NCBI GenBank assembly: GCA_038882715.1
Contig: JAVZNR010000001.1
Location: 78,313-142,312 of the forward strand
Direction of reading: 5' to 3'
Length of the DNA: 64,000 nucleotides
Source of the DNA: Candidatus Bathyarchaeia archaeon
GTDB taxonomy: Archaea; Thermoproteota; Bathyarchaeia; Bathyarchaeales; DTEX01
The notes beneath the pieces were generated by a model. That model made no database searches. It worked only from the letters and a program-made list of their open reading frames with translations, and was not told where the DNA came from. Each line of letters opens with the position of its first letter. Positions within the stretch are counted from its first letter, which is position 1. A program made the position numbers and the translations under genes. Positions 6,302 to 31,653 of the stretch are shown in pieces.

Positions 6302-7312
6302 TTAATCAACTCGAACTTTTCCTCCAGCATTAACGCTTTTAACTATGGCGTCTAGGGTTTTCAGCGCATAGTAAGCGTCTTCCGCGTCCGCGTGTGGATG
6401 AGACCCCGAGAGAATGCACTGCGTAAAATGCTCAAGTTCCTCCACGTAGCCTGGGCGGGAGACGCCCCTATAATGGCTTCCATGCTCGAATATCAGGGTT
6501 TGTATAGCGGTTGGATCCGTCGGCTCCATCCATCCTTTTCTACTTGCATATCTCAGTCTCTTAAACTGTTCTGCCTCAGCCCATCCTTCCGTCCCCTGAA
6601 CTCCAACCCGCTCGTAGAAGATCGGTGAGCAGCCGCTTAAGGTAAATGAGCCTACAGCTCCGGAGGCAAACAGCAGGCTAGCCGACACCGCGAGCTTTCT
6701 CCCTTCCACCGCTATGCCCCTCGCCTCAACCTCAACTACTCTTCTCCCAAGAAACTGGAGACAGTCCATTGGATGAATCGCTTGGTTAAGCATGAATCCC
6801 CATAGGAAGGGTTGCCCCCAAGCCCCTCTGGTGTCCGGGGCTAGGTATGTGGCTTCTAAGCGGAAAATATCGCCGAAATCTTCCCTCTCAGATATCTTTT
6901 TGAGAGCTCTGTGGACTGGCATGTGTCGCCAATGCGTCCCAACCATGCAAATTTTCCCGGAGGATTTCATCGCTTCATAAATTCTTCCCGCGCCGTCCAG
7001 CGTTAAGGACGGCGGCTTCTCTATGAACACATTTACGCCCTTCTTTAGACATGCGATCCCTAATTCCTCATGCATCTGTGGCGGCCCAACAATTATCACG
7101 CCGTCCGGAGACTCCTTATCTATCATTTCGCTGTAATCTATATACCATCTTTTAGCACCAAAGCGCCGCACAGCCTCTTTCGCTCTTCCCTCAACTAAAT
7201 CACAGGCAGCTACATACTCGATTTGTGGGATAAGCGCGGCAGCCGGCTGAAGACTCTCCATCGAGTGGTGCCCACATCCTATAAAACATATGCGCACTTT
7301 ATCCCGGCTCAT
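6302..7312 (-). CDS. Gfo/Idh/MocA family NAD(P)-dependent oxidoreductase
   Basis: 336-aa dehydrogenase with an N-terminal Rossmann fold (ICFIGCGHHSMESLQPAA, residues ~8-25). The family motif E-K-P-P-S at ~97-101 (VFIEKPPSLT) has the catalytic Lys. The C-terminal alpha/beta domain carries MLNQAIHPMDCLQFLG, with the substrate-site His. It probably oxidises a hydroxyl of a sugar, inositol or related polyol using NAD(P). It is the first gene of a two-gene minus-strand unit with the sugar isomerase. ATG start. The substrate is not identifiable from the sequence. Confidence 0.85.
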   Translation of the reverse strand: MSRDKVRICFIGCGHHSMESLQPAAALIPQIEYVAACDLVEGRAKEAVRRFGAKRWYIDYSEMIDKESPDGVIIVGPPQMHEELGIACLKKGVNVFIEKPPSLTLDGAGRIYEAMKSSGKICMVGTHWRHMPVHRALKKISEREDFGDIFRLEATYLAPDTRGAWGQPFLWGFMLNQAIHPMDCLQFLGRRVVEVEARGIAVEGRKLAVSASLLFASGAVGSFTLSGCSPIFYERVGVQGTEGWAEAEQFKRLRYASRKGWMEPTDPTAIQTLIFEHGSHYRGVSRPGYVEELEHFTQCILSGSHPHADAEDAYYALKTLDAIVKSVNAGGKVRVD

Positions 7313-28995: not shown

Positions 28996-30759
28996 ATGGA
29001 TTACTCTCTCGTCACAGAGGCGTATGAGAAAATCGAAGGCACGACAAAGAGGCTTGAAATGACCGATTACCTAGTTGAATTGCTTATGAAAACACCCAAA
29101 GAAGTCATAGATAAAGTTGTGTATTTAACTCAGGGTAAACTTTACCCAGACTATGTAGGCATAGAGCTCGGCGTAGCGGAGAGGCTTGCGTTAAGGGCTG
29201 TAGCTAAGGTTGCGGGGCGCAAAGAAGAAGAGATTGAAGAAGATTTGGCGAGAACCGGAGATTTAGGTGAAACCGCGCAGATCTTCCTAGAGAAAAGGCG
29301 CCAGGTGTCTTTCTTTAGAAAGCCTTTAACCGTAGAGAGAGTTTATCAGACTCTTGATAGGATAGCGAAGGCTGCCGGAGAAGGCTCTATGGATTTGAAG
29401 GTAAATCTTCTGGCAGGTCTTTTAGCTGACGCGACGCCGAAAGAGGCAAAATATATTATTAGAACTGTTACCGGGAAACTTCGCCTCGGCATAGCCGACA
29501 TGACCATTCTGGATGCGCTGGCAATAGCCTACGGTAAGGGGAAGGGTGCAAGAGACATTATTGAGAGGGCGTATAATATATCCTCTGACCTAGGCAAAGT
29601 TGCCAAAGCCCTCGCTGAAGGCGGACTTGAAGCCCTCAAGAATTTTCATGTCTCAGTCGGCAATCCAATTAGACCGATGCTGGCCGAGAGATTAAGCTCT
29701 CCTGCCGAGATACTTGAAAAACTTGGCGGAAAATGCATCGCCGAATACAAGTATGATGGCGAGAGAATACAAGCCCACAAGTCTGGTAACGACGTAACGC
29801 TATTCTCAAGGAGACTTGAAAATATTACAAGCCAGTATCCCGATGCAGTAGAATTAATCAGGAACCATGTTAAAGCTGAAGCCGCCATAATTGAAGCTGA
29901 ATGCGTGGCTGTGAACCTCGATACCGGAGAGATGATGCCCTTCCAAGAGCTCATGCATAGGAGACGCAAATACGATATTGAGAAAGCCGCAAAAGAGTAT
30001 CCTGTCTCCCTCTTCGCATTCGATGTGCTCTATGTTGATGGTAAAGATTTAACGTTAGAGCCGTACCCGACGAGGCACAAGGTTCTTGAGGAGATGATCG
30101 AGCAAAGCGATAGGTTTCAGATAGCTAAATACTTGATTGTTGATAACGCTGACGACCTAGAGCGTTTCTTTGAGGAGGCTGTAGAGGCTGGATGCGAGGG
30201 GCTTGTCTGCAAGTCGCTGAGCGGCGACGCTATTTATCAGGCTGGAGCTAGAGGCTGGCTCTGGATAAAATATAAGCGGGACTATAAGAGCGAGATGACC
30301 GACACGGTAGACCTCGTAGTTGTCGGAGCATTCTATGGTAGGGGAAGGAGAGCTGGAACCTATGGAGCGCTGCTTCTAGCAGCTTACAACCATGATAACG
30401 ATACTTTTGAAACAGTTTGTAAGTGCGGATCCGGCTTCACAGATGAAGATCTACAGAACCTTCCAAAAATGCTTGATCCCTATAGGATTAACCATAGGCA
30501 TCCACGGGTAAACTCAAACCTTGAGGCGGACGTATGGTTCCTGCCAAAAATGGTTATAGAAGTAATCGGAGCCGAAATAACTCTAAGCCCAATCCACACC
30601 TGCGCGAAAGACCTGATAAGAAAGGGAAGCGGATTAGCAATAAGATTCCCGAGATTTACGGGAAGGTATCGCACCGATAAATCGGCGGAGGATGCTACAA
30701 GAGTGGACGAAATAGTGGAAATGTATAGGAGACAACTAAAGAAGATAGAAGCCGAGTAA
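28996..30759 (+). CDS. lig: ATP-dependent DNA ligase
   Basis: 587-aa replicative ligase that seals nicks with ATP. The alpha-helical DNA-binding domain (~1-215) is followed by the adenylation domain with catalytic K252 in EYKYDGERIQ. Motif III FAFDVLYVDG, motif IV EGLVCK and motif V WIKYKRDY follow, then the OB-fold domain ending near residue 580. Length and order match crenarchaeal/euryarchaeal LigI homologues. ATG with GGGGGAT upstream. It is followed by the long palindrome rather than another gene. Confidence 0.96.
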   Translation: MDYSLVTEAYEKIEGTTKRLEMTDYLVELLMKTPKEVIDKVVYLTQGKLYPDYVGIELGVAERLALRAVAKVAGRKEEEIEEDLARTGDLGETAQIFLEKRRQVSFFRKPLTVERVYQTLDRIAKAAGEGSMDLKVNLLAGLLADATPKEAKYIIRTVTGKLRLGIADMTILDALAIAYGKGKGARDIIERAYNISSDLGKVAKALAEGGLEALKNFHVSVGNPIRPMLAERLSSPAEILEKLGGKCIAEYKYDGERIQAHKSGNDVTLFSRRLENITSQYPDAVELIRNHVKAEAAIIEAECVAVNLDTGEMMPFQELMHRRRKYDIEKAAKEYPVSLFAFDVLYVDGKDLTLEPYPTRHKVLEEMIEQSDRFQIAKYLIVDNADDLERFFEEAVEAGCEGLVCKSLSGDAIYQAGARGWLWIKYKRDYKSEMTDTVDLVVVGAFYGRGRRAGTYGALLLAAYNHDNDTFETVCKCGSGFTDEDLQNLPKMLDPYRINHRHPRVNSNLEADVWFLPKMVIEVIGAEITLSPIHTCAKDLIRKGSGLAIRFPRFTGRYRTDKSAEDATRVDEIVEMYRRQLKKIEAE

Positions 30760-30763
30760 TATT

Positions 30764-30936
30764 AACCAGAAAATTTCTATTATACGCCAAGCCAGGTCTA
30801 AGCCTTGAGCACCACCCGGCCCGTTTAAGCAAAGTCTTTGTCGCACGTCAGTCTTCAGCCGTTTCGACTGACGTGCTCTTTGCTTAAACGCGGTGCTCAA
30901 AGCCTACTTCCTGGCTTGGGCATAATAATTTTTCGT
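30764..30936. repeat. long imperfect palindrome; candidate structured RNA or MITE-like element
   Basis: The gap between lig and the next gene folds almost entirely on itself. Paired blocks are 30787-30796 with 30910-30919 (10 bp), 30805-30813 with 30892-30900 (9 bp), 30822-30834 with 30878-30890 (13 bp) and 30843-30853 with 30866-30876 (11 bp), around a 12-nt loop. The A/T-rich flanks (GAAAATTTCTATTAT and ATAATAATTTTTC) extend the symmetry. Asymmetric internal loops of ~8 nt lie only on the 5' strand (30814-30821 and 30835-30842). No ORF. It is too elaborate for an ordinary terminator. Type is undecided: ncRNA, non-autonomous mobile element, or hairpin at the transcript end. Confidence 0.75.
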
Positions 30937-30999
30937 GTATTTGACTTATAAAACTTTTCACACAATTTTTTAAGTTTAAAATCTAAATATTTTTGGAGG

Positions 31000-31653
31000 A
31001 TGGTTTTGAAAAGACCTCTTGAGCGATTCGAAGAAGATTTAGACCTTATTGTGAATAAGCTTTGTAGTGGTGAAAGTGAGAAAACTTGTCAGCAGATTTT
31101 GAGGCTAAGAGATAAGCTGATTGCTCTTTACAGGAGAAACCTTGTTAAAATTAATCATTCTGTTATGGAACTTATATGCGCCAAATACCTTATTTTGAGC
31201 GGATACTATGTTGATGTGGAATATGCTTTAGACGGCATATCATGCGACATATATGCTTTAAAAGGGCTGGGCAGCCTAATTGTTGAAGTTGAGACAGGTT
31301 ATGTTCCGCCAGAGCATGCTGTCGACCCAGAAATATACTGCATGGTTAGAGTGACAAGTAAAATCGTTAGGTACAGCAATTATGCGGAGAAATTCGCTTT
31401 AGCGACGCCGCCATACTATGTGCTCTGTTTTTCGCCAGCATTAATTAAGCCGCCGAGATATAGGACGTTGAGCGAGATCAAAGAGATTAAAGCCTTATGC
31501 GACCTGTATTATAGTAATCCGCCGGTCACTATTGAGGAAATAAGGAATGCTCGCCTACACGCAATATACATAATCGACGTGGATAAGGGAGTGGTTAAAG
31601 AGACCGACCCAAACACTTATCTGGAGAAGACGCAGGAACTCTATAAGTGGTGA
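31000..31653 (+). CDS. conserved archaeal protein, possible PD-(D/E)xK nuclease-like fold
   Basis: 217 aa, no signal or TM segment. The central part GYYVDVEYALDGISCDIYALKGLGSLIVEVETGYVPP (in two pieces here) has a D-x(n)-E-x-E pattern between beta strands, reminiscent of restriction-endonuclease-like folds that recognise or cut DNA. The C-terminal half (YYVLCFSPALIKPP, IYIIDVDKGVV) is beta-rich. ATG at 31000 touches a GGAGG site; the in-frame TTG at 31006 has better spacing and may be the true start. Function unknown. The rhomboid gene begins 6 nt downstream, suggesting an operon. Confidence 0.55.
   Translation: MVLKRPLERFEEDLDLIVNKLCSGESEKTCQQILRLRDKLIALYRRNLVKINHSVMELICAKYLILSGYYVDVEYALDGISCDIYALKGLGSLIVEVETGYVPPEHAVDPEIYCMVRVTSKIVRYSNYAEKFALATPPYYVLCFSPALIKPPRYRTLSEIKEIKALCDLYYSNPPVTIEEIRNARLHAIYIIDVDKGVVKETDPNTYLEKTQELYKW

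Follow-up and report, generated by a model that had tools for sequence, protein, structure and literature searches.

A structured RNA gene family of Bathyarchaeia, with a covariation-supported pseudoknot and a nuclease-fold protein as candidate partner

The hairpin and its neighbours

The window (the whole 64,000-nucleotide stretch of Bathyarchaeia DNA analysed here) holds a near-palindrome at 30786-30921, with A/T-rich inverted flanks running out to about 30764-30936, which lies between an ATP-dependent DNA ligase gene (lig) and a gene for a protein with a predicted nuclease-like fold. This placement agrees with the original prediction, the ligase being identified through Pfam and the other neighbour through its predicted fold; the RNA described below is convergent with lig. 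Folding of both strands likewise bore out the shape ascribed to the palindrome: read on the plus strand, its 8-nt bulges are confined to the 5' strand (TCTTTGTC, 30835-30842, and ACCCGGCCC, 30814-30822), and in the minus-strand reading they fall on the 3' side. The terminal loop comprises 12 nt (30854-30865), and an extra small, two-sided internal loop sits above the outer stem (30905-30909 / 30797-30801). When folded, the segment 30740-30960 reaches -78.6 kcal/mol on the plus strand (z -7.5 against dinucleotide shuffles) and -93.2 kcal/mol on the minus strand (z -9.6), with none of 200 dinucleotide shuffles giving as stable a fold. As had been stated, there is no open reading frame inside the hairpin; it is also single-copy in its genome, the sole second DNA match being the palindrome's own reverse strand. 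What the original prediction overlooked is the strand, the promoter, a pseudoknot between loop and bulge, the relatives with more than one arm and the association with the adjacent gene. The parts of the locus are as follows.

28996..30759, plus strand: ATP-dependent DNA ligase, convergent neighbour (Pfam PF01068, PF04675, PF04679)
30770..30921, minus strand: predicted non-coding RNA (fold, homologues, promoter spacing, and a covariance model match at 30803-30901 on the minus strand); probable 5' end at about 30921, probable 3' end at about 30770 in a T-rich stretch
30786..30796, minus strand: outer stem, 3' strand CCTGGCTTGGC (pairing counts over 53 RNAs)
30797..30801, minus strand: base-domain internal loop, 3' side, TTAGA (of GGCTTAGACC), conserved in types A and B
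30802..30813, minus strand: helix H1, 3' strand (compensatory changes)
30814..30822, minus strand: lower bulge GGGCCGGGT, in which GCCG (30820-30817) pairs with the terminal loop (pseudoknot covariation)
30823..30834, minus strand: helix H2, 3' strand (covariation)
30835..30842, minus strand: hinge bulge GACAAAGA, a nearly invariant single strand opposite a single A (30877)
30843..30853, minus strand: helix H3, 3' strand (covariation)
30854..30865, minus strand: terminal loop GAAACGGCTGAA, in which CGGC (30861-30858) pairs with the lower bulge (pseudoknot covariation)
30866..30876, minus strand: helix H3, 5' strand, pairing with 30843-30853 (98.8% of cells paired)
30878..30889, minus strand: helix H2, 5' strand GTTTAAGCAAAG, pairing with 30823-30834 (97.9% of cells paired)
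30892..30904, minus strand: helix H1, 5' strand, pairing with 30802-30813 (compensatory changes)
30905..30909, minus strand: base-domain internal loop, 5' side, AAGTA (consensus RAGYA), common to types A and B
30910..30921, minus strand: outer stem, 5' strand GCCCAAGCCAGG (pairing counts over 53 RNAs)
30946..30953, minus strand: TATA box TTTTATAA, centred about 27 nt upstream of the predicted start (spacing in 53 loci)
30954..30959, minus strand: BRE-like element GAAAAG, upstream of the TATA box (conserved A positions)
31000..31653, plus strand: gene for an orphan PD-(D/E)XK-like protein, divergent, candidate partner (adjacency, co-occurrence, predicted fold)

Distribution in Bathyarchaeia

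Bathyarchaeia are very abundant, barely studied archaea of sediments. The DNA search for other copies, which gave none more in the hairpin's own genome, found homologues in relatives: of the 61 related genomes searched, 10 of 10 genus-mates matched strongly and genomes from other families of the order more weakly. A motif pattern run over 84,980 species genomes returned 38 stretches, of which the 21 that pass the arm covariance model carry the title Candidatus Bathyarchaeota or Bathyarchaeum, or in one case ‘uncultured archaeon’; the remaining stretches do not pass. Bacterial matches to the pattern fail the model, as do all three from IMG/VR, and a viral origin was set aside on this count. Covariance models, which the original prediction had proposed to build, gave class-wide counts: the 99-nt model R1 detects the RNA in 62 of the 257 class genomes and R2, built from 62 sequences, in 63 of 257, and in a phylum sample of 398 genomes every match fell inside Bathyarchaeia; the class and phylum searches used stricter filters, such that weak members may be missed, and the E-values of the models are rough. 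Some genomes (G041, G128, G134 and G140) carry several RNA loci.

Rfam 15, searched with the hairpin of the window, gave no credible match among its 4227 families at E<=10, and with six member loci (E<=1) returned tRNA as its sole match. A search of the open-access literature, with subscription papers and preprints outside its scope, likewise found no structured RNA of Bathyarchaeia. Taking these comparisons together with the covariation described below, we consider that the hairpin almost certainly represents a genuine new structured RNA family of Bathyarchaeia.

Covariation and a loop-bulge pseudoknot

Fifteen arms, aligned without using structure (alignment A1), show double changes that keep the pair at 23 of 35 arm pairs; 94.3% of arm cells are paired (slid controls, 32-46%), and A1 is matched by no shuffle on any covariation measure. 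Pairing is held in 97.9% of cells in helix H2 (double changes at 6 of 13 pairs) and in 98.8% in helix H3 (9 of 11). The outer stem, counted over 53 RNAs, has 539 of 583 cells paired, where shuffling gave 419 and at most 449.

The terminal loop and the lower bulge also change in concert, appearing as CGGC/GCCG, CAGC/GCUG, CAGU/ACUG, UGGC/GCCA, CAAC/GUUG and AGGC/GCCU; over 62 matches 97.9% of cells in this loop-bulge pseudoknot are paired and all four pairs are double-changed, a level of pairing that 0 of 500 shuffles reach and that compares with 4-40% in slid controls. Where an RNA has two arms, the pseudoknot of the second is 96.2% paired, including an AGAC/GUCU version in one Bathyarchaeum RNA. 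Because of this covariation, one of the one-sided bulges (GGGCCGG) can be read as a strand of the pseudoknot and the other (GACAAAGA) as a hinge that hardly varies. We do not claim a kink-turn at the hinge, having found in a by-hand check that a G-C pair beside it competes with the required G-A pairs.

Promoter, strand and ends

Across 53 loci, TATA-like boxes are concentrated about 26-30 nt upstream of the outer stem's first base, which is the spacing of archaeal TATA boxes, and at the place expected for a BRE conserved A residues occupy positions -47, -46 and -44, counted from the GRAGYA motif. Many loci have T-rich stretches after the 3' side of the RNA. Among paired cells, G-U outnumbers A-C when read on the minus strand (149 vs 55; 35 vs 9 in A1), an excess which leans towards a minus-strand RNA in the model-fitted alignment and less so in A1; since G-U exceeds A-C, the functional molecule would be the minus-strand RNA, and its transcription from a promoter of its own is, on these signals, very probable. 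In several loci of a genus of family f8 (g21; L109, L113, L115-L119, L122) a second small hairpin (AGTGGA...TCCACT), followed by a T-run, stands just past the outer stem and is apparently a terminator.

The comparative evidence shows the feature to be the predicted gene of a stand-alone structured RNA of ~150 nt on the minus strand, in which the outer stem and the conserved internal loop make up a ‘base domain’; above this rises a three-helix arm, H1-H2-H3, with a pseudoknot that joins the terminal loop of H3 to the bulge between H1 and H2.

One arm, two arms and a second arm type

End-to-end lengths of the outer stem are quantised, at 134-140 nt for RNAs with one arm and 219-236 nt for those with two. 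The genus of the window has one arm; the RNAs of g2-g5, the remaining genera of its family, and of f6, f7 and f8 have two, ~95 nt apart. Upstream of nuclease-like genes that have no match to the arm model, there is another long divergent hairpin with the same base domain: a pattern scanner found 19 of these among 60 gene loci (f6, f8, f9, f12, f13), its chance level being 28 hits in 5.2 Mb of shuffled sequence. We refer to 15 of these hairpins as type B and to the RNAs with the arm of the window as type A. An alignment of the 15 type B hairpins has double changes in 24 of 40 pairs; the base domain and the promoter spacing equal those of type A, and the arm is different. A model (R3) built solely from type B recovers type A RNAs of most families, with E from 1e-5 to 1e-12 and with matches extending to the ends of the outer stem, which is independent evidence that types A and B form a single superfamily. 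The same model brings in further loci adjoining the gene, such as those in G036 (f4) and G127.

Both types occur together in G126 (C11 and C110), G053, G101, G102 and G114, and in such genomes they are paralogous RNAs with a shared base domain and different arms. In f9, f12 and f13 the base domain carries yet other arms (L142 958-1125, L143 2752-2909, L144 3697-3851, L145 2748-2904); the f12 and f13 arms resemble each other and neither type A nor type B.

The nuclease-like neighbour

No family of Pfam, NCBIfam or PADLOC matches the neighbour protein, which is 217 aa long. Its AlphaFold2 model (pLDDT 88, pTM 0.85) has an alpha-beta-beta-beta-alpha-beta core, and most of its top-ranking Foldseek matches, each of them weak (E >= 3e-3), are PD-(D/E)XK proteins (XisH, SfsA, FokI, HindIII, Hjc, Can2 and Bax1). 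The candidate active-site positions are D83 and E96-V97-E98, with D83, E96 and E98 invariant in seven homologues and the usual K replaced by E; such an E-x-E in place of E-x-K occurs in BamHI. We describe the protein as PD-(D/E)XK-like, with a predicted nuclease fold.

The RNA is divergent from this gene at ~100-400 nt in f1, f5 and f11, at about 79 bp in the window, and type B and similar RNAs are divergent from it in f4, f6, f8, f9, f12 and f13; the ligase neighbour is conserved in families f1 and f5. The gene is present in 113 of 257 class genomes: in 58 of the 63 that carry the RNA against 55 of the other 194 (kinship being allowed for solely by genus counts), or, by genus, in 17 of 19 with the RNA against 27 of 90 others. 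When type B is included the figures become 81 of 87 against 32 of 170, a comparison biased by type B having been sought beside the gene. The association has its exceptions, in that type A RNAs lie away from the gene in Bathyarchaeum-type and other genomes of f6, f8, f25 and f27, no gene was detected in the RNA-bearing genera g26 and g82, and many f27 genomes have the gene and no detected RNA. At L157-L159 and L182-L198 (mostly f27) the gene stands without an adjoining base-domain RNA; the RNA there may have been lost, have moved elsewhere or have diverged too far. Conserved adjacency can also result from ancestral synteny; even so, these distributions make a functional link between the RNA and the neighbouring protein reasonably probable. 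To this extent the suggestion of a protein-recognised hairpin remains viable at the level of RNA, the base domain being conserved and co-inherited with the nuclease-like gene.

A model for the RNA and its possible partner

Synthesising these observations, we propose a model in which H3 folds back beside H2 at the GACAAAGA hinge, so that the pseudoknot can form; the similar lengths of the two helices (11 and 12-13 bp) would suit H3 to lie along H2. This fold-back would give a compact module, used once in the RNA of the window and twice in many relatives. The RNA would then work in trans and supply the RNA component of a ribonucleoprotein whose protein is the divergently encoded, PD-(D/E)XK-like one: the invariant base domain may serve as a common recognition element that is read by the protein, with the arms, in at least two architectures and in one or two copies, setting specificity or holding the protein in a given state. 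A functional pairing of RNA and protein is suggested because the RNA has its own promoter, is usually co-inherited with the gene and is frequently adjacent to this orphan. Taken as a whole, the explanation of a trans-acting RNA that forms or regulates a ribonucleoprotein with its nuclease-fold neighbour is the one that we lean towards, by a modest degree; a ribonucleoprotein in the strict sense is a more tentative proposal, to which we give somewhat less than an even chance. More speculative again is the idea of a hitherto unknown class of ribonucleoprotein, with an orphan PD-(D/E)XK-fold enzyme and RNAs of one invariant base domain and interchangeable arms, pseudoknotted or of other kinds. 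Each genome would have one or several such RNAs, which might serve the enzyme as cofactor, scaffold or specificity element.

Several known RNAs invite comparison. Archaeal RNase P and SRP RNAs are also single-copy structured RNAs, but both are located elsewhere in the genome of the window and have no similarity to this one. The Ro60-associated Y RNAs are, like it, small stand-alone hairpins with a conserved stem and an internal loop near the base; we rejected this identity, as no Rfam Y RNA match was found and a TROVE (Ro) protein occurs in just 1 of the 257 class genomes (G247, C137), one without a detected RNA. In fold-back riboswitches such as SAM-I, a bend lets a terminal loop dock against a bulge or junction; the present RNA differs in sequence and topology, has no Rfam match and is mostly found outside 5' leaders. 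It shares with OLE, ROOL and GOLLD (PMC12286853) the standing of a conserved structured RNA with little or no known role, but is archaeal, several times smaller and of unrelated structure.

Alternative explanations

The main competitor to the model is a stand-alone regulatory RNA whose arm binds another protein or a ligand (as a sponge, scaffold or sensor), the nuclease-like gene being an old neighbour and the Bathyarchaeum copies cis-regulators in 5' leaders. A compact pseudoknotted fold would suit such a sensor, in f6, f8, f25 and f27 the type A RNAs show no linkage to the gene, and in the Bathyarchaeum group one-arm copies (L130 16569-16667, plus strand, and 6356-6454, minus; L131 3990-4084, minus; L132 3102-3199, minus; L101 4033-4131, plus) sit 40-90 nt before start codons. 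Behind them stand a cold-shock-domain gene, dodecin genes and small ORFs, proline-rich or basic, with a DJ-1/PfpI gene following in one case, and in four of the five TGCTGAGAATA lies between TATA box and hairpin, just downstream of the box; these leaders could possibly constitute a cis-regulated stress regulon, and the module may work in cis as well, to judge from its position in front of genes. The association with the nuclease-like gene across many families and genera nevertheless speaks against a different partner, and the window RNA, being convergent with lig, is no leader; we consider this explanation unlikely, though a serious contender. A pair akin to type III toxin-antitoxin systems, with tandem pseudoknotted arms neutralising a nuclease, is much less probable still. 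Pseudoknotted and sometimes repeated RNA modules beside a nuclease-fold gene do recall ToxIN (PMC5086642, PMC8860590), and the likeness extends to ToxI and CptI; the arms here are, however, much larger (~95 nt) and number one or two per RNA, each RNA has its own promoter and is divergent from the gene or often unlinked to it, rather than co-transcribed as repeats, and it is syntenic and single-copy in most genomes, a pattern of vertical inheritance with nothing mobile about it. The partner, with its PD-(D/E)XK-like predicted fold, also matches no type III toxin family in Pfam, NCBIfam or PADLOC, and the pair thereby departs from the defining features of this group.

The original prediction had allowed for a guide or regulator RNA, a MITE-like element or a fold-back artefact of sequencing. 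Its RNA stands, on the compensatory changes, the promoter and conservation throughout the class; its guide drew no support from 16S rRNA. A modification or processing guide pairing with rRNA through its bulges would account for single-stranded stretches being conserved within a molecule that is otherwise helical, but the terminal loop and the lower bulge are each other's pairing partners, Rfam gave no H/ACA, C/D or other match, and complementarity to 16S rRNA (gene at C2 156668-158166) is no better than in shuffles; the 23S gene was not detected in the assembly of the window's genome. We rate such a guide as very improbable. Least probable of all, to the point of being nearly negligible, is an element that acts as DNA, be it MITE, recombination site, terminator or assembly fold-back, with no RNA gene. 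The near-palindrome between genes speaks for it, and single-stranded DNA could form the same fold; against it, G-U is tolerated over A-C on one strand, the pseudoknot covaries and a promoter stands at the spacing of a transcription start. A MITE needs multiple dispersed copies, where here there is one per genome at a conserved site, and independent assemblies of many species exclude the artefact. The earlier view that the hairpin is unlike a simple terminator holds good, given its ~150 nt, its own promoter and its conserved loop and pseudoknot.

Outlook

The preferred reading, of a trans-acting RNA with a nuclease-fold partner, is directly testable, since the cultivated Bathyarchaeum tardum carries several copies of the RNA, and the small size of RNA and protein alike would allow them to be reconstituted and their structures determined. 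The family adds a new entry to the non-coding RNAs of archaea, one with a covariation-supported pseudoknot, a predicted promoter of its own, modular arms and a candidate protein partner.
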